64,000 bases of DNA. Origin: Algoriphagus pacificus. GTDB taxonomy: Bacteria > Bacteroidota > Bacteroidia > Cytophagales > Cyclobacteriaceae. The position numbers were made by a program, and so were the translations under genes. The stretch spans positions 979,859 to 1,043,858 of the forward strand of contig NZ_JAFKCU010000002.1 in the NCBI RefSeq assembly GCF_017254845.1, written 5' to 3'. Positions within the stretch are counted from its first letter, which is position 1; every line of letters starts with the position of its first letter. Positions 37,913 through 47,403 of the stretch are shown piece by piece. The notes under the pieces are model-generated. The model saw only the letters and a list, made by a program, of their open reading frames with translations, made no database searches and had not been told where the DNA came from.

Positions 37913-40900
37913 TTAATTTTTTGGAATTATTAGTTTGAATTGAGCACCATTGCCCGGTTCTGAATCTACCAGGATTTCTCCTCCATGATATCTAATAATA
38001 TCATAGCTAAGAGATAGTCCTAGACCTGTACCTTGTCCGGTAGGTTTGGTGGTGAAAAATGGCTGGAAGATCTTTTGCTTTACTGAATCGGGAATTCCGT
38101 TTCCATTGTCTTGGATTAGGATTTCGATGTGATCATCCAGATTTTTAGTTGTTACTTTTACTGTTGGATTAAATTCACTTCCATTTAATTTTTGCTTTTT
38201 TTCTGAGACTGCGTGGAATGCATTTGTGATCAGGTTCAGAATAACCCTTCCCACATCTTGAGCTACAACGTTGATTTTGGGCATTCCAGCGTCAAAGTCA
38301 GTTTCCATACTTGCATTGAAGGATTTGTCTTTAGCTCTCAGTCCATGATAAGAAAGCCTCAGGTATTCATCAGCAAGTGCATTGATATCTGTAGGATCTT
38401 TTTGCCCATTACTGGACCTGCTGTGTTGTAGCATTCCCTTGACGATGGCATCGGCTCTTTTTCCATGGAAGCTGATTTTTTCTTCATTGTCAGAAATGTC
38501 CTTAGTCAGAGCAATAACTTCATCCAGGTTTCCATTAGCCAGTTCTTCTCGAAGTTCCTCCAAAAGTTCAGCGTTGACTTCAGAAAAATTATTTACAAAA
38601 TTCAATGGGTTCTGGATTTCATGCGCTATTCCTGCTGTCAACTCACCCAAGGATGCCATCTTTTCAGATTGAATCAATTGAGTTTGCGTATTCTTTAACT
38701 CATCGATTTTTTCTTTGAGTTGAAGAGTTCGATGATTTACTTTTTCTTCTAGAATTCGATTTTCTTTCTGAAGCCACTGAGATCTAACATATACTATAAT
38801 ATAAACTAGCGCTGCAAAAAGCGAAGCAAAAAGAAGGTAAGCCCACCAAGTTTGCCACCAAGGAGGGAGAATTGTGAACTTGAATGTTGCTGGTTCACTC
38901 CATTTTCCATTAAATCCACTCGTAGCAACCTTAAACTCATAATTGCCAGGAACGAGATTGTAATAGTTTTTAGAACTGTTCTTTGGAGAAGGATCTGTCC
39001 ATTTTTCATCAGCCCCCTCTAAAATATATCGGTATACGATCTTGTCTCTTCCTTGAATGGATGGATTGATAAAGGTGAAACTGAAGGAATTTAGATCGTA
39101 AGGAACTGTCATGCCTATCGGAATAAGGCTAATCATATCCAGACTGTCCCATTTGATTTTATTGTATTCTACCTCACTGGAATCAGCCGGAAAGTTAGAT
39201 TTTGTATAAAAAGCAGTTTGCTCACTATTCCAAATAGTATCAGACTCGGTCAATTTGTTTTTGATGAAGTCCGCATTTGCGAATTGTGGATTTTGATCCA
39301 TCACATTCACCTTGGTCAAGGAAATCTGCGGAGTCAGTGTATCCAATTCAGCTTTTTGATTTATCACCGAAAGAATAGGGGCTGCCGACCACCACATAAT
39401 TCCTTTGGAAGTTATGATAGCTGTAGCTTGGTTGTAATCATTGAAAGGGAAACCTTCCGGTTTGCTGAATCTAGAAAACCTCCAAGGCTGATTCGGATTT
39501 CTACTAGTAGGTCTATTCACCTCCACGATTCCATTGTCAGTGCCGATGAAAATATCGTCTTCAACCGTTAGGATGTCATACATAATAGGAGGGTTCATCC
39601 CATGCTCAGAAAGCACATTTGTAATTGACATGGAATCCAAATTCAAGATGGAAAAGCCACGATCACCTCCGATAATAATTTCACCATCCTTAGATTGGTC
39701 AATCATGGAAACATAATCACTTGGGAGTCCATTAAATTTTCCTAGATAGACAATTTTGTCTTTTTCCTTATTTAGCACATTGATTCCAAGATCATTGCCC
39801 AGCCAGATATTTCCTTTTTTATCTTCCTCTACCAACCAAACTCGATTGGAGGCCAATCCTGAGAATTCATTGATAAAGTAAAATGAATTGTCAGAAGGAG
39901 TGTATTTGAAGAATCCATCTAGTGAACCGAGCCAAATTGTTCCATCTGCAGTCTGATGGGCTTTCCAAAATATTCTGGAAACTTTCCTGTCAAACTGAAA
40001 GATCTCTGCTTCGCCCTTATCCAAATCTATAATTACAAACCCACCCACGCTACCAACAAGTAATCTGTTTTCTGATAAAACGCTGATTGATCGTTGGTTA
40101 TTCGGATTTAGATTTTCAGGGAATTTTACCAAATAGAGTTTTTCAGTTTTAGGATCATACACATTGATCCCCTCGTATTGAGCCATCCAGATTCTGCCTT
40201 CTTTATCCTCCCCAATTCCCCAAGTGTCATTACTGGCAAGTCCGGTTGATTTATCAAAGTGCTGACTTAGCATACCAGTTGGATTAATCAGGAGAACGCC
40301 TCTAGATGCTGTTCCAACCCAAATATTACCTTTGGAATCAGTCAGACTTCCGCTTGGTAGGCCTGTCGTTCTAAATTCTGCACCAGAAGGGATTTTTTTC
40401 AAAAGCTGCTTTTTCTTGTCAAAAATGGTGATGGTGTCGTTATCTATGACCCAAATCCTGTTTTTTGAATCGAGATTGAATGCTTTTGCTCCATTATGAA
40501 ATCCCTGATCTGCACCCAGTTTATATTGTGCTTTTTCGGAAAGTGAGATTCCAAATGCATCTTTTTCGGCAAAGCTAGAGAGCCAAATTGTTCCGTCAGG
40601 GTCTTCAAAAAAATCATAAATAATGGACTTCAATGTCATGCCTTCATCTTCTCCCAAAATGCGGATTACATTCCTTTGGGGATTAAGTATACCCAAATTG
40701 CCATTGTATCCCATCCAGATATTTTTCTGAGAATCCATGAAAATCCCTGCTGAGAAAAACCCTAATTTCTTGTTCAGAGTATTCATGTATTTCATGGATC
40801 TTTCCTCAGGATCTAATTGGACGATGCCCTGACTGGTATTAGCAAACCAAAAATTCCCGTTTTCATCTTCGATTCCCCGGGTATAATCACTGCCTATTTT

Positions 40901-41617
40901 ATAGACTTCTACCAGTTTAAGAATTGGGTCCAAAAAATAAACTCCACTGCTATTGGCCACCATCATAAGTTTGCCAGAACTGGTTTCACTGATATCCACG
41001 ATCGGATCTATGTTCCCATCCGCATTTCTTAAAATGAAACTGTAATTCTGGAATTGATCTCCTGTAAATCTGTGAACACCCTTTTCGCTAGAAAGCCAAA
41101 TGGAGCCTTTTTCATCATCAAAAATGGAGTAAATCGCATTTCCAATGAGGCCTTCGCTTTGACCTATTCTAATAATTCCTGAAGTAGTCCCAGGACTTTT
41201 CGTTAATGGACCGAGGAGTGTAATTTCAGGTTGATGGAGAATAAATTTCAGATAGGGTACATCAATTTTTTTGATAGTATCCAGATCAATCTGAATTTCT
41301 TCTGGATCATCCCAATTAATAGGTGTATTGGTAATTGGAGCCTCTAAAGGCTTGAAAGCAAAGGTGCTAAAGTGTTTGGAAGGGTAGTTTTCAAGATTGA
41401 ACTTGATTTTAGTAATGGTTGGGACGCTGTCTTGCCCAAGTTTTTTCCATTGGATAGGCTTAAATTCAGGGAAAGCAAAATCCTGCGCTTGCGGAGTAGT
41501 ATAGCCAGAAGGATTTTTGGGGAATGGAGTTTCGGTTTTTGTATGACAAGCAGCCATCATCGCCATCATTAAGATGACCGTAGCCCAACTCGTTAATATT
41601 TTTTTTCTAAACTCCAT
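37913..41617 (-). CDS. Two-component-regulator-propeller sensor histidine kinase
   Basis: This 1234-aa protein has a lipobox-like signal ([11 protein letters not shown]), a large periplasmic beta-propeller region of repeated short blades (about 140-760, for example [39 protein letters not shown]), a Y_Y_Y domain (about 855-925), a membrane helix near 935-955, a coiled coil, a phosphoacceptor region with His999 in GIAHEIQNP and an ATPase domain ([19 protein letters not shown]). It should sense a periplasmic signal and phosphorylate the receiver protein encoded just after. The signal may be a polysaccharide fragment, as in related propeller kinases, but this is not shown here. Confidence 0.9.
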
Positions 41618-41628
41618 TTGACTTTTTG

Positions 41629-42957
41629 TTATAGTTTAATAGTAATAGAAGTTCCTTTGCCAACTTCACTATCTACTTTGATACTTCCTCCATGAGCTTT
41701 GATAATATCATAACTAAGGCTGAGGCCTAATCCTGTACCCTGACCAGTTTCTTTGGTTGTAAAAAATGGCTGGAAAATCTTATCTCTAACAGCCTCGGGG
41801 ATGCCGTTTCCATTGTCACTGATACATATTTCAATTCCATCTGCTAGCTTTTTGGTGCTGACTTCTACTACAGGTTGGAAAGTCTCTGGATTTTGAGATT
41901 TTTTCTCATTGACGGAGAAAAACGAATTATTAAACATGTTTAAAATCACCCGACCAATGTCTTGTGGCACTACTTCTATATTGGGTAAGCTTGGATCAAA
42001 ATCAGTTTTGAAATCAGAATTAAATGATTTGTCTTTTGCTCTTAGTCCATGATAGGAGAGGCGCAAGTATTCATCAATCAGATTATTGAGATCAGTCGGT
42101 TCTTTTTGGCCAGAGCTCGTTCTAGAATGCTGCAGCATTCCTTTGACAATCGAATCAGCTCTTTTACCATGGTGATTGATTTTTGAGAGATTTTCCTTTA
42201 AATCTTCACAAATAGCTTTGACCTCTTCATAATCTCCATTTTCTATTTCTTCCACCATTTCATCCAAAAGTTCATTGCTAACTTCCGAGAAGTTGTTGAC
42301 AAAATTTAATGGGTTTTGAATTTCATGCGCAATTCCAGCCGTCAATTCTCCCAGCGAAGCCATTTTTTCGGATTGGATCAATTGGGCTTGAGCTTCTTTT
42401 AATTCTTTTAAGGTTTCTTCAATTTGTTCTTTGGCCTTTAAAAGTTGCTCGTTTTTCTGTTTTAAATCCTTGGTTTGCGCATCAACTTGCTTTTGTAACT
42501 CTTCATTTTTCCTTTTCCATTCAGTGAGGTGCCAAGCATCATTTTCAACATTGACAGGTGTGCTTCCATGCCAATGGACGAGCTTCCACTTGTTTTTCTT
42601 CCATTCAAATAATGTACTGAGTCTAAAATCCACAGAATTTGAACCTTGTGGTGTTTCAATATCAAGAACAAAATCACTGATTAATAAGGCTGAATTTTCA
42701 TCATCGCTTATCCATTGGATTTTAGCATTGTCATTATAGCTGACTGAAATACCCAATACCTTAGATTGCTGATATTGGATGCCTAACACTTCTTTAAAAT
42801 GTTTAAGTCCAATTATCTTTTCGTCTTTGGTAGTTCCAAATCCCGTGACTTCCTCTATGATAAGCTCATCCATTTGATCAAAAGGGAATTCTTGGGTGAA
42901 AGTCACCAGAATAGTCTCATGAGTTTTTTGGAGCAATTGGCTTTTTTCTGAATCCAT
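41629..42957 (-). CDS. Histidine kinase with SnoaL-like N-terminal domain
   Basis: This 442-aa cytosolic protein pairs a SnoaL/NTF2-like domain (about 1-135, ending WKLVHWHGSTP) with a long coiled coil (about 143-200), a phosphoacceptor region (His211 in GIAHEIQNP) and an ATPase domain ([26 protein letters not shown]). From about residue 195 it is closely related to the C-terminal part of the next kinase. The N box reads NMFNNSFFSV, where its neighbour reads [10 protein letters not shown]. It starts the leftward kinase-kinase-receiver group and may form mixed signalling with its neighbour. The ligand is unknown. Confidence 0.88.
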   Translation of the reverse strand: MDSEKSQLLQKTHETILVTFTQEFPFDQMDELIIEEVTGFGTTKDEKIIGLKHFKEVLGIQYQQSKVLGISVSYNDNAKIQWISDDENSALLISDFVLDIETPQGSNSVDFRLSTLFEWKKNKWKLVHWHGSTPVNVENDAWHLTEWKRKNEELQKQVDAQTKDLKQKNEQLLKAKEQIEETLKELKEAQAQLIQSEKMASLGELTAGIAHEIQNPLNFVNNFSEVSNELLDEMVEEIENGDYEEVKAICEDLKENLSKINHHGKRADSIVKGMLQHSRTSSGQKEPTDLNNLIDEYLRLSYHGLRAKDKSFNSDFKTDFDPSLPNIEVVPQDIGRVILNMFNNSFFSVNEKKSQNPETFQPVVEVSTKKLADGIEICISDNGNGIPEAVRDKIFQPFFTTKETGQGTGLGLSLSYDIIKAHGGSIKVDSEVGKGTSITIKL

Positions 42958-43499: not shown

Positions 43500-43874
43500 A
43501 TGAATGAATTGAACCACAACGAAGAACTGATTATGGGCATCTTCTGGAGGCTTGAAAATGCCTTGGTGCGGGATGTCCTAGAAGAATTGCCTGAGCCGAA
43601 GCCACCCTATACTACGTTGGCTTCTTCCATTAGACTCTTGGAAAAAAAGGGCTATTTAAGTCATAAGACTTACGGTACTACACATCTCTTTTACCCTGTA
43701 ATATCACAGGCGGAGTACAGTAAGAAAAGCATCAATCGAATTGTAAAAAATTTCTTTGAAGGCTCTGTGAGTAATTTCTTGTCTTTTATGGTCAAGGAGA
43801 AAAATATTTCTGATGATGAAATTCAGGATTTACAGAAACTGATTGATGATTACGATAACCCTGAAAAGAAATGA
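43500..43874 (+). CDS. BlaI/MecI-family transcriptional repressor (module 1)
   Basis: This 124-aa winged-helix protein has the BlaI pattern: NHNEELIMGIFWRLENALVRDVL, the recognition region PPYTTLASSIRLLEKKGYLSHK, and a C-terminal dimerisation part (KNFFEGSVSNFLSFMVKE). Family members are inactivated when a membrane peptidase of the BlaR1 type is activated. The gene overlaps the peptidase gene by four bases (ATGA). It is a close paralogue of the protein encoded at 45777-46148. The signal need not be a beta-lactam; see the partner gene. Confidence 0.9.
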   Translation: MNELNHNEELIMGIFWRLENALVRDVLEELPEPKPPYTTLASSIRLLEKKGYLSHKTYGTTHLFYPVISQAEYSKKSINRIVKNFFEGSVSNFLSFMVKEKNISDDEIQDLQKLIDDYDNPEKK

Positions 43875-45172
43875 ACGAGCTATTAACCTATCTTCTAGAG
43901 GCCAGCATTTGCTTAGCCATCTCTCTACTGTTTTACAAAGTCGTTTTAAGTGACTTGACATTTTTTGGATGGAACAGGGCAATCTTGCTGTCCATGTTGG
44001 GATATTCTGTGATTATTCCTTTGCTTTCTTTTCAGGTGACTACGGGGCCTGCAGTAATGCAAGAAGTTTTGCTTCCTGAATTTTTGGTGGGAAAACCAGT
44101 AGATCAAGAACCCAATTCTTTTACCGTTTTCCAGATTCTTTTTTCTATTTATTTGATAGGATTGATTTGGACAGCAACTAGGTTGATCTACGGCTTTGTC
44201 CAGTCATTCATTTTATTGGGTAAATCAGAACTTCTGTATTATAAGAATCAATATATCGCAGTTCATCCAGAGTTTACTCCAGCATCTTTTTTTCAATACA
44301 TTTTGCTTCCAAAATTTCACCAAGAAGATGAAGACCAGCAGCGGATTATTCTTCATGAATCTGTGCATGTGAGCAAAAAACATAGCTATGATTTACTTTT
44401 TGTTCAGATGGCCAAAGTGGTCTTCTGGTTCAATCCACTCATTTATCTTTTTGAAAATGCTATCCGGGAAGTGCATGAGTTCCAAGCCGATCAAGGCGTA
44501 ACCAGTTCTTATTCCCAATCTGAATATTCCCGTCTGCTGTTGAGACTTTTGACTGCAGGTAGGGGATGGCAGTTTATGAACAACTTCAACCAATTTCAAA
44601 CCAAAAAAAGAATTATCATGATGAACAAAACCAAATCCGACCAAAGCCAACTCGTTCGCTTTTTGATGGCTATTCCAGTCATGGGACTGATGTTTTTTGC
44701 CTTTTCCTGTGACATTGCCAAAGTAGATGAAGAAATGGAAGGTCCAACCCAAATGGGTGAACAGGCTAAAACAATGAGTCCGGCAGCTTTGAATGCGCGA
44801 TTAAAAACAGGAAAAGATGGAAATGAGATTTTTGATGTAGTAGAAACTCCTCCAAACCCTCCAGGAGGAATGGTAGGATGGAATGAATATTTGTCTCAAA
44901 ACTTGACTTATCCAAGCCAAGCAAGGGAAATGGGGGTAGAAGGAACCGTGATTGTGGTGTTTGTAGTTAACTCCGACGGTTCAATTTCTGATGTGGATGT
45001 TTTAAGAGGTATTGGGGCAGGTGCTGACGAAGAAGCGATGAGAGTAGTCCGAAATGCGCCTAATTGGACTCCAGGAGAGCAAAGAGGAAGAGCAATCAAC
45101 ACCAGAATGAGATTGCCAATTCGTTTCTTGTTAGGAGGTTCTGAAGTTGCAAAAACTTCAAATCCGGTTTAA
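43871..45172 (+). CDS. M56 (BlaR1-like) membrane peptidase with TonB C-terminal domain
   Basis: This 433-aa protein has membrane helices in the first 120 residues, the M56 zinc motif HESVH (162-166), and EVHEFQADQ supplying the third ligand. A fourth hydrophobic stretch (263-279) ends FSC at Cys280, like a lipobox, and is preceded by Met-Met-Asn-Lys (250-253). The C-terminal part (about 340-425) is a TonB C-terminal fold: YPSQAREMGVEGTVIVVFVV and DVDVLRGIGAGADEEA. There is no penicillin-binding domain, so the usual beta-lactam sensor is absent. On activation it should cleave or release its BlaI partner. Confidence 0.88.
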   Translation: MNELLTYLLEASICLAISLLFYKVVLSDLTFFGWNRAILLSMLGYSVIIPLLSFQVTTGPAVMQEVLLPEFLVGKPVDQEPNSFTVFQILFSIYLIGLIWTATRLIYGFVQSFILLGKSELLYYKNQYIAVHPEFTPASFFQYILLPKFHQEDEDQQRIILHESVHVSKKHSYDLLFVQMAKVVFWFNPLIYLFENAIREVHEFQADQGVTSSYSQSEYSRLLLRLLTAGRGWQFMNNFNQFQTKKRIIMMNKTKSDQSQLVRFLMAIPVMGLMFFAFSCDIAKVDEEMEGPTQMGEQAKTMSPAALNARLKTGKDGNEIFDVVETPPNPPGGMVGWNEYLSQNLTYPSQAREMGVEGTVIVVFVVNSDGSISDVDVLRGIGAGADEEAMRVVRNAPNWTPGEQRGRAINTRMRLPIRFLLGGSEVAKTSNPV

Positions 45173-45240
45173 ACTGATTTTCCTTAAGCAATCGAAATAC
45201 CTTCTAACTAATTCAATTATTTAGTTAACAATAAATCAAA

Positions 45241-45648
45241 ATGAAAACTCTCTCTAAACCAGCGCTTTTAATTTGCCTAACGGCAATAATGGCCTTTTTT
45301 CTTGGAATTCAAGAAGGAATAGCCCAATCAGAACAGGAGACATTCAAAGAAGTAGATCAAATGCCAGAATATCCAGGAGGGCAAACTGCTATGTATCAAT
45401 TCATGGCAGAAAACCTAAAATATCCTTCTGCTGCTAGAGAAAAAGGCATAGAAGGAACTGTTGTGGTTTCCTATATTGTCAATGTGGATGGGTCCATTTC
45501 AAATCCAGAAATCCTTCGAGGAATTGGTGGAGGATGCGATGAAGAAGCAATTAGAATTGTGAAGGCATTCCCAACTTGGAGTCCTGGAATTAAGGATGGT
45601 AAAAAAGTAAGAACAGAGATGAGACTACCTATTAGATACAAGCTTTAG
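45241..45648 (+). CDS. Secreted single-domain TonB C-terminal protein
   Basis: This 135-aa protein has a cleavable signal peptide (about 1-28, ending GIAQS) and then only a TonB C-terminal fold: NLKYPSAAREKGIEGTVVVSYIV and NPEILRGIGGGCDEEA. There is no proline-rich spacer and no anchoring helix after the cleavage site, so it would be free in the periplasm and could not transmit ExbB/ExbD energy by itself. It is highly similar to the C-terminal domain of the preceding membrane peptidase, 68 bases upstream. A terminator follows. Confidence 0.85.
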   Translation: MKTLSKPALLICLTAIMAFFLGIQEGIAQSEQETFKEVDQMPEYPGGQTAMYQFMAENLKYPSAAREKGIEGTVVVSYIVNVDGSISNPEILRGIGGGCDEEAIRIVKAFPTWSPGIKDGKKVRTEMRLPIRYKL

Positions 45649-45667
45649 TTAATGGTCTTATATTCGA

Positions 45668-45700
45668 AAAGCCTCTAGAATGATCTGGAGGCTTTTTTTT
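45668..45700 (+). terminator. Terminator after the TonB-C gene
   Basis: AAAGCCTCTAGA (45668-45679) pairs with TCTGGAGGCTTT (45684-45695), with one wobble pair, followed by a run of T. It separates the two BlaI/BlaR modules. Confidence 0.85.
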
Positions 45701-45709
45701 GTTAAAATT

Positions 45710-45743
45710 TACGAATATGTCGTGATATTACGAAATATTCGTA
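45710..45743 (+). promoter_or_regulatory. Operator region of the second BlaI/BlaR module
   Basis: TACGAATAT (45710-45718) and ATATTCGTA (45735-45743) are exact inverted repeats. Nested between them is TCGTGATATTACGA (45720-45733), itself nearly palindromic. The right TCGTAGG starts 38 bases before the ATG, as in module 1. Confidence 0.6.
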
Positions 45744-45776
45744 GGTTTTGAAATAAATGTTTTCTACATTGGAGCT

Positions 45777-46148
45777 ATGGAAGAACTTACAGCAAACGAG
45801 GAGCAGATCATGCGGATTTTCTGGAAATTGGAAAGGGCGATTGTGCGTGATATTTTGGATCAGCTTCCAGAGCCAAAACCACCTTATACTACTTTGGCAT
45901 CATCGGTTAAAGTATTGGAGAAAAAAGGGTATCTGGGACACAAGTCTTATGGCAAAACCAATGAGTATTTTACTTTGATTGCTGAGAGTGATTATCGTAA
46001 AAAGAGCTTTAACTCCTTGGTGAAAAATTTTTTCAATGGATCAGTTGAGAATGTATTGACATTTTTGGTAAAGGAGAAAAAGGTGACTGAAAAAGACCTG
46101 GAAGAATTACAGAAAATGATTGATGGATACGAAAACGATAAGAAATGA
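45777..46148 (+). CDS. BlaI/MecI-family transcriptional repressor (module 2)
   Basis: This 123-aa winged-helix protein is a close paralogue of the one at 43500-43874: TANEEQIMRIFWKLERAIVRDIL and PPYTTLASSVKVLEKKGYLGHK match it nearly position by position. It overlaps the following peptidase gene by four bases. Because both repressors have similar recognition helices and both promoters share half-sites, cross-regulation between the modules is likely. That last point is inference. Confidence 0.9.
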   Translation: MEELTANEEQIMRIFWKLERAIVRDILDQLPEPKPPYTTLASSVKVLEKKGYLGHKSYGKTNEYFTLIAESDYRKKSFNSLVKNFFNGSVENVLTFLVKEKKVTEKDLEELQKMIDGYENDKK

Positions 46149-47368
46149 TGCAAGGTGTTTTCACATACCTTTTGGAGAGTAGTTTGGCTTTAGTATTGGT
46201 AGCTATTTTCTATAAACTTGTCCTGGAAGATCTAACGTTTTTCGATCTCAGTAGAGCTTTTCTGCTTGTTTTGATTACTTGTGCTGCAGTGTTACCGCTG
46301 ATTTCTATTGATTTCCAATGGTTGGCTGAAGATTCGGTCAGGAGGGTAAATAACTCCCTGCCTTGGTTGAATGGAATTGAAAATCAAAATTTAATTCTTA
46401 CAGAAGAAAATAATTTGTCTTGGTATTATGTACCGCTTTTGGTGTACTTGGCAGGGCTCTTTTTTAGGCTGGTGAAATTAGGTTTTGGGATTTACAGAAC
46501 TTTGGTTTTGATAGCTCAATCACAAAAAATTGAGACTGATTCCCATACCCTCGTTATTAATCCAAAATTCATTCCTGCTTCCTTTTTCAATTTTATTCTA
46601 CTTCCGACTTATCAAGAGAATAATTCGGATCAGCAACAGATTCTGCTCCATGAATCGGTTCATATCCAAAAAGGACATTCATGGGATGTCTTATTTGTCC
46701 AGCTTTTGAAATCAGTTTTCTGGTTTAATCCTGCTATTTACATGCTGGAAAAACAGCTTCGTGAAGTTCATGAGTTTCAGGCTGATCAAGCCGTTACTAG
46801 TCAGTATTCCCCAGTTGCATATTCACGGTTATTACTAAGGCAACTTAGACAAGATTGTGGTTTGCAATTCATGAATAATTTCAATCAATTTCAAACAAAA
46901 AAAAGAATCATTATGATGAACAAATCAAAGTCAAATGGCTCCTTGAAAAGCAGGTTTCTGCTAGGTGTGCCAATGATAGTATTAATGATAGGCTTATTCT
47001 CCTGTGATATGGCCTTCAGTGAAAGTGAATTGACAGGAGTCTGGAAAGGCACCGAATTTAAATTCGAGCAAACAGCAGGTCCTGATTTAGTAGCGATGGT
47101 AGAAGGTGGAAGGGACCTTCACATTCAAAGTAGATTGGCTCTGAATGAGGATGGAACTGTACAAATTACTTCAGGTCAAGGTGAAATGAATGGAAGCGGA
47201 ACTTGGGTTTTAAAAGAGAATCAAATTGTGGTATCCATGGGAGGAGAGGACACTTATTATGAAATTCTTTCTTTAACTGATACAGAATTAATTACAAAGC
47301 ATGAAGTCGAATTCGAAACTCCAATGGGAAAACTTGCCGGAACGATTACACTAGAGTACGAGCGGTAA
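46145..47368 (+). CDS. M56 (BlaR1-like) membrane peptidase with lipocalin-like domain
   Basis: This 407-aa protein has N-terminal membrane helices and the zinc motif HESVH (169-173), with EVHEFQADQ as in its paralogue. The junction QTKKRIIMMNK is nearly identical to that of the first peptidase. The hydrophobic stretch 270-286 ends FSC (Cys287), lipobox-like. Beyond it lies a different output: about 115 residues with SELTGVWKGTEFKFE, NEDGTVQITS and GTWVLKENQIVVS, the pattern of lipocalin-like (DUF4923-type) domains. No penicillin-binding domain is present. The ligand is unknown. Confidence 0.85.
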   Translation: MMQGVFTYLLESSLALVLVAIFYKLVLEDLTFFDLSRAFLLVLITCAAVLPLISIDFQWLAEDSVRRVNNSLPWLNGIENQNLILTEENNLSWYYVPLLVYLAGLFFRLVKLGFGIYRTLVLIAQSQKIETDSHTLVINPKFIPASFFNFILLPTYQENNSDQQQILLHESVHIQKGHSWDVLFVQLLKSVFWFNPAIYMLEKQLREVHEFQADQAVTSQYSPVAYSRLLLRQLRQDCGLQFMNNFNQFQTKKRIIMMNKSKSNGSLKSRFLLGVPMIVLMIGLFSCDMAFSESELTGVWKGTEFKFEQTAGPDLVAMVEGGRDLHIQSRLALNEDGTVQITSGQGEMNGSGTWVLKENQIVVSMGGEDTYYEILSLTDTELITKHEVEFETPMGKLAGTITLEYER

Positions 47369-47380
47369 AAAATTTATTCT

Positions 47381-47403
47381 AATCTACGAATAAGTCGTAG
47401 ATT
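47381..47403. promoter_or_regulatory. Perfect palindrome after the second peptidase gene
   Basis: AATCTACGA (47381-47389) and TCGTAGATT (47395-47403) are perfect inverted repeats around ATAAG, and TTCTTAT follows. The arms contain the same CTACGA/TCGTAG sequence found before both BlaI genes. It could be a weak terminator, a third repressor site, or both. Confidence 0.5.

Follow-up and report, generated by a model that had tools for sequence, protein, structure and literature searches.

Two BlaI-linked M56 peptidases of Algoriphagus pacificus as probable in-frame fusions with lipoproteins, with the last transmembrane helix as a predicted internal signal peptide

We analyzed a stretch of 64,000 nucleotides from Algoriphagus pacificus (contig NZ_JAFKCU010000002.1, positions 979,859 to 1,043,858; hereafter the window) that contains two genes for BlaR1-like M56 peptidases, each next to a gene for a BlaI-family repressor. 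We consider it likely that each peptidase is fused in frame to a lipoprotein, that the fourth transmembrane helix (TM4) acts as an internal type II signal peptide, and that Lgt and LspA release the tail. The parts of this proposal differ in strength. Fusion of an M56 gene with a lipoprotein gene is strongly supported by comparison with free homologues, and cleavage at the conserved cysteine is a prediction that the same comparisons support well. The host genome looked Algoriphagus-like in our searches, in which the closest named loci were from Algoriphagus species (identity up to 72%), and it contains a gene for LspA.

The two proteins share a peptidase and have different tails. The first (433 amino acids; 43871..45172, + strand) and the second (407 amino acids; 46145..47368, + strand) both matched Pfam M56 (E values of 2.9e-17 and 7.3e-16), scoring above the profile cut-off and containing the HExxH zinc motif, which in the second is HESVH at residue 169. 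The tail of the first is a TonB_C domain, as found in TonB energy transducers (E 7.4e-19; residues 344-419; 44900..45127), and that of the second is a lipocalin-like domain (Lipocalin_4, E 2.7e-5; residues 296-383; 47030..47293). A structure model of the lipocalin tail (residues 287-407; mean predicted local distance difference test score of 88.3) had as its best match in the PDB the Bacteroides ovatus lipocalin 4gzv. The modeled fold resembles those of the Bacteroides lipocalin-like proteins 4gzv, 4iab and 4i95, although identity to them is 15-17% and their solved chains, about 133-142 residues long, each consist of one domain. There was no penicillin-binding domain among the Pfam matches of either protein, in agreement with an earlier reading made from the sequence alone (the sequence-only reading), and the generic BlaR1 equivalog profile gave 36.4 and 32 bits, below its cut-off of 400. 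Judged by their sequences, which have no C-terminal penicillin-binding sensor, the two are not BlaR1 or MecR1 beta-lactam sensors. A sequence search of the PDB found BlaR1 with the first protein (E 3.2e-4) and not with the second (best E 1.2).

The lipoprotein-like segment lies inside each open reading frame, just ahead of the tail. The sequence-only reading had described two M56 reading frames with a shared junction, QTKKRIIMMNK, cysteines at positions 280 and 287, and different outputs, all of which the open reading frames, Pfam matches and alignment bore out; only its heading, by which a lipoprotein-like start precedes each peptidase, was loosely worded. The junction (44597..44629 and 46892..46924) is letter-identical in the two proteins. 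In the first protein the Met pair begins at residue 250 and FSCD at 278, in the second at 257 and 285, giving C280 and C287; neither protein has another cysteine beyond its peptidase domain. Their identity to each other extends through FSCD and fades afterwards, into unrelated tails, and the swap point is therefore the Cys. TM4 has the layout of a lipoprotein signal in both: R263, 16 uncharged residues (264-279) and then Cys280 in the first (44660..44710), and R270, residues 271-286 and then Cys287 in the second (46955..47005), each Cys preceded by Ser. By analogy with BlaR1, this end would face the periplasm. In the model of the first protein, helix 258-279 stops one residue ahead of Cys280. 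The segment differs from the N-terminal signal peptide of ordinary bacterial lipoproteins in that it follows three earlier helices.

Stand-alone lipoproteins homologous to each tail exist downstream of M56 genes, with the cysteine in register, as had been asked of the homologues in the sequence-only reading. We searched six-frame open reading frames of collected loci with hidden Markov models. The lipocalin search, whose seed began at S286-C287, did not require a Cys, and it found 8 stand-alone lipocalins, all with a lipobox signal peptide at the start and a Cys aligned with C287. Two of these are close copies (L134 and L144), and four are cut by the end of the locus (L128, L123, L126 and L072). 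The Cys was invariant over 12 aligned lipocalin rows (the first trimmed to start at the Cys), comprising 6 fused and 6 free sequences (L063, L069, L134, L144, L072 and L126, with L123 and L128 left out). The TonB_C seed was made without the Cys, and two truncated M56 tails (L070 and L118) were excluded. An E-[IL]-EGPT linker was present in 11 stand-alone TonB_C rows, every one of them with [SA]C directly before the linker (L139 is a near-copy of L046), and the same linker follows the C280 position in several fused proteins. Another set of free TonB_C proteins, picked with a pattern that contained the Cys and hence circular for it, was not used for this count. The uncharged stretch before the Cys in the free lipoproteins is 12-18 residues long.

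The arrangement of genes also relates the free and fused forms. At the loci with a free lipocalin gene, the order was M56-TonB_C fusion, tonB, lipocalin in 6 of 8 and M56-TonB_C fusion directly followed by lipocalin in the other two (L134 and L144). Loci of the window type (L038, L039, L041 and the window itself) have a BlaI gene and an M56-lipocalin fusion in place of the free lipocalin. BlaI followed by the M56-lipocalin fusion also occurs in L071, where the 3 kb upstream contain no first module; many of the 76 loci compared for gene order end at about 3.7 kb, so that absence there is uninformative. A tree of 13 lipocalin rows (L128, which is cut short, was left out) had a single change between free and fused forms, on a weak branch (46/0, 39% of bootstraps). 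As a separate observation, a free TonB_C gene (L048:4337-5005; also in L252) begins with a signal-like sequence of its own, which is followed by a near-identical copy of the DNA for TM4 and the lipobox in the adjoining M56 gene, with ~2 differences in 60 bases (by eye). Judged by this similarity, the copy is a recent transfer of the segment.

The cysteine is conserved among close relatives of the window proteins. We defined a clade of 58 distinct sequences, each at least 42% identical to one of the window proteins; their tails are TonB_C in 51 cases and lipocalin in 6, with 1 cut by the end of the contig. [SA]C was present at the end of TM4 in 57 of the 58, and in all 57 exactly 16 uncharged residues separate the Cys from the last charged one, a fixed spacing that may partly reflect a lack of indels. 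At +2, the 48 members that pass a strict rule, under which the Cys must be followed by a hydrophilic stretch, have Glu or Asp, and the other nine have Asp or Asn. Because the Escherichia coli sorting rule for lipoproteins is said to break down in Bacteroidetes (excerpts of PMC5837995), the final membrane is not readable from this residue.

We compared TM4 across Bacteroidota M56 proteins with a control position, the outward end of TM2. The 254 collected loci and the window gave 224 distinct M56 proteins reaching the end of the profile, which fell into 153 clusters at 70% identity, 96 at 50% and 64 at 40%; the control comprised 142 representatives, after those with no clear TM2 were dropped. 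The boundary window at the outward end of the helix contained a Cys in 71 of 153 representatives for TM4 and in 0 of 142 for TM2. A lipobox was present at TM4 in 45 of 153 (0 of 142 at TM2; mean of 8.8 and maximum of 20 in 500 shuffles of the TM4 windows), and signal-peptidase-I sites of the Q-rule type, xxA|Q, in 18 of 153 (1 of 142 at TM2; shuffles with a mean of 5.0 and a maximum of 12). Clustering at 50% gave a lipobox in 21 and a Q-rule site in 14 of 96, versus 0 and 0 of 86 at TM2 and shuffle maxima of 9 and 9; at 40% the numbers were 14 and 7 of 64, versus 0 and 0 of 54 and shuffle maxima of 9 and 7. The control and the shuffles rule out chance or an alignment artefact as the source of the Cys signal at TM4. 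A more permissive lipobox count was 50 of 153 versus 0 of 142, for which Fisher's test gave p = 1e-16, a value that is too small since the sequences are related; the strict rule gave 39 of 153, with TM2 still at 0 of 142. On a tree, the permissive type II label needs 15 changes, at least 7 of them forced by well-supported branches (some labels being false), and therefore the lipobox was gained or lost on several occasions. Among proteins outside the clade (permissive, unclustered), a lipobox was present in 22 of 54 proteins with TonB_C tails versus 12 of 112 with other tails.

Q-rule sites at the end of TM4 were an observation of their own. TM4 ends in xxA|Q in Bacteroidota M56 proteins L005, L156-L160, L169, L172, L176, L181 and L192, which suggests that these tails may be released as soluble proteins. 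The host genome has five M56 matches, all above the family cut-off, and by eye their TM4 segments end in FSCD (the window pair), VTA|QQ (L005), ASA|QQ (L001) and no such site (L004). The VTA|QQ and ASA|QQ ends of these 2 of 5 proteins resemble the signal-peptidase-I substrates that follow the Q-rule in Bacteroidetes (excerpts of PMC5837995), whereas the window proteins have Cys and not Gln, and the cases described in those excerpts are ordinary rather than internal signal peptides.

Based on these comparisons, we propose the following pathway. The M56 protein would insert with TM4 running from cytoplasm to periplasm, Lgt would lipidate C280 or C287, and LspA would cut directly before the Cys. 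The TonB_C or lipocalin domain would remain in the periplasm on a lipid anchor, as a counterpart of the free lipoproteins encoded in the same operon in relatives, alongside the exported TonB_C proteins and lipoproteins that the operon also encodes. The peptidase would be left with TM1-TM3 and a stub of TM4. BlaI would keep the operon repressed until the activated peptidase cleaved it, by analogy with BlaR1 of Staphylococcus aureus.

Several observations weigh against this proposal. Its support is at the level of sequence, and acceptance by LspA of a signal inside a four-helix protein is an assumption. The strict rule is failed by 9 of the 57 Cys-bearing clade members, including both window proteins, because the residues after their Cys are mixed. 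One Algoriphagus M56 protein (L059:2989-4419) has FSF in place of FSC, either as a natural variant that lacks the Cys or through a sequencing error. Homologues without the Cys also have a small residue ahead of the site (FS, FA, FT), and [AGS] at -1 was dropped as independent evidence for that reason. The permissive type II labels include false positives in which the Cys is inside the helix (L014, L200 and L236). A TM4 site is absent from 72 of the 153 representatives by the permissive rule, with a weak AxA alone in 15 more, and from 98 of 153 by the strict rule; cutting is therefore not needed family-wide. The Q-rule signal is weaker than that of the lipobox: at 40% clustering its excess is no longer distinct, 7 of 64 being equal to the largest shuffle, and bare Ala-Gln occurs in 20 of 153 TM4 windows versus 8 of 142 TM2 windows.

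Some of these points fit a fusion that is not cut, in which TM4 would be an ordinary helix, the tail would stay tethered as in intact BlaR1, and the Cys would be a leftover from the lipoprotein gene or a residue that lies at the membrane surface by chance. TM4 fits a transmembrane segment, many homologues have no site, L059 manages with no Cys, and BlaR1 itself signals with a tethered sensor (excerpts of PMC9834060). However, a relic Cys is unlikely to have been kept in 57 of 58 proteins at a fixed spacing and in TonB_C and lipocalin types alike (these are close relatives, though), or to recur across the phylum alongside signal-peptidase-I sites. A role in a disulfide is disfavored because neither window protein has a further Cys beyond its peptidase domain, but 15 of the 48 strict-lipobox clade members do have a later one. 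We regard an uncut fusion as unlikely.

The closest known system is S. aureus BlaR1 (cryo-electron microscopy structures 8exp-8ext). According to excerpts of PMC9834060, SpsB, a signal peptidase, cuts the linker that joins the last transmembrane helix of BlaR1 to its sensor, Gly331Lys blocks this cutting, and the authors propose that it serves receptor turnover. BlaR1 and the window proteins share a BlaI partner, an M56 zinc peptidase, a domain on the outer face after the last transmembrane helix, and a signal-peptidase site at the end of that helix, where cutting is known for BlaR1 and predicted for the window proteins. The window proteins differ in having no penicillin-binding domain, a type II lipobox in place of a type I site, and TonB_C or lipocalin tails that have free lipoprotein homologues. 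Regulated shedding, in which cutting would inactivate the receptor or serve its turnover and a bound ligand would protect the site, has been proposed for BlaR1, with cutting by SpsB at Gly331 and a basal state that exposes the site (same excerpts). A lipid anchor, however, would hold the domain at the membrane and not shed it. Maturation of its usual substrates by LspA is also constitutive. Shedding of this kind, which overlaps our proposal in that the protein is cut, seems improbable to us, and as the role of cutting we favor constitutive maturation over turnover because the free and fused forms interchange.

A more speculative variant, which we would give a small chance, is that the module senses lipoprotein maturation itself. 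Uncut, unlipidated receptor would accumulate when Lgt, LspA or trafficking was overloaded, and the tethered form would destroy BlaI. If so, M56-BlaI pairs across Bacteroidota would act as sensors of envelope stress, the signal being their own processing by signal peptidase II or I.

Internal translation initiation at the Met-Met pair, which would make a free lipoprotein besides the full-length peptidase, is very unlikely. The A-rich tract noted in the sequence-only reading is real, with an A fraction of 0.476 upstream of the junction Met versus 0.267 at the clade's other internal Mets, but as a start signal it is weak: clade Mets with at least 3 Lys or Arg codons upstream have 0.35, and outside the clade the junction fractions (0.448 and 0.459) are not above those at Lys/Arg-rich Mets (0.466 and 0.475), so that much of the A-richness is due to Lys and Arg codons. 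Lys codons near the junction are AAA in 95 of 116 cases, compared with 61 of 104 for the clade's other Lys pairs, but the preference holds outside the clade too (174 of 198 versus 830 of 1086, mostly in members with no lipobox, the count not being split by lipobox). The free lipocalin of L126 begins with MNK and, by eye, has a TM4-like signal. Against this, the K-R-x-x-M-M stretch is kept in M56 proteins of the same genome that have no lipobox (L004 and L005). Its second Met is replaced by Leu or Ile in 58 of 115 homologues from outside the clade and by Leu in 5 of 58 clade members. Synonymous sites at the junction are only modestly conserved, ranking 10th among 128 windows, and the structure model places the stretch at the end of the helix preceding TM4. 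The Met-Met pair is a feature of the peptidase. Thus, among the three options of the sequence-only reading, fusion stood, with free homologues in register downstream of M56 genes, cleavage gained support by comparison, and internal initiation fared poorly.

The two modules are adjacent, with the gene order BlaI, M56-TonB_C, exported TonB_C, BlaI, M56-lipocalin, all on the + strand. The BlaI genes (43500..43874, Penicillinase_R E 1.9e-26; 45777..46148, E 1.4e-27) each overlap with their stop codon the start of their M56 gene (ATGA in the first module). The stand-alone exported TonB_C protein (45241..45648) has a signal-peptidase-I start of the Q-rule type, GIA|Q, read by eye. In some relatives, 2-3 exported TonB_C genes lie at this place, and the N-terminal part of some of these is longer. 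Next to the module on the - strand, at 37913-41617 and 41629-42957, are two histidine-kinase-like genes whose kinase ends are closely similar by eye.

A palindrome, TACGA-N5-TCGTA, mostly 48 nucleotides before the BlaI gene, is probably the BlaI operator. In the window, the putative operator TACGAAATATTCGTA (45729..45743, + strand) is 48 nucleotides before the second BlaI gene, TACGAATAAGTCGTA (47385..47399, + strand) is just after the second M56 gene, and the first BlaI gene has two half-sites only. TACGA-N3-6-TCGTA occurred within 200 nucleotides before 33 of 191 BlaI-like genes, with 0.15 expected from simple shuffles. The host genome has 14 sites of the pattern TACGA-N5/6-TCGTA, fewer than the 63 for a reversed control pattern, and on that count we rejected a genome-wide BlaI regulon. 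Five of the 14 are at two M56 loci, the second of which has its palindromes at G000:C1:194523-194592. The palindromes suggest local autoregulation alone.

Our literature search for a lipobox in M56 or BlaR1 proteins found no description in titles and the openings of abstracts, most subscription papers lying outside the search; as far as that search reaches, the lipobox predicted at this position of BlaR1-like proteins and the exchange with free lipoproteins would be new. Two papers were set aside. One, on the BAM complex, matched "M56" through the catalogue number M5625, and no BlaI protein was found in the portion seen. The other, on hemin in Porphyromonas gingivalis (PMC10470040, in excerpts), has an M56 gene and a neighboring BlaI gene in its tables of changed methylation or expression, which is too thin to use.

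If the proposed fusion and cleavage are right, a good part of a widespread receptor family of Bacteroidota would be a polyprotein that is split by the lipoprotein machinery. This would explain how one peptidase scaffold changes its periplasmic partner, with the swap at the Cys, and would place the cutting of BlaR1 by signal peptidase in a broader pattern of the family.

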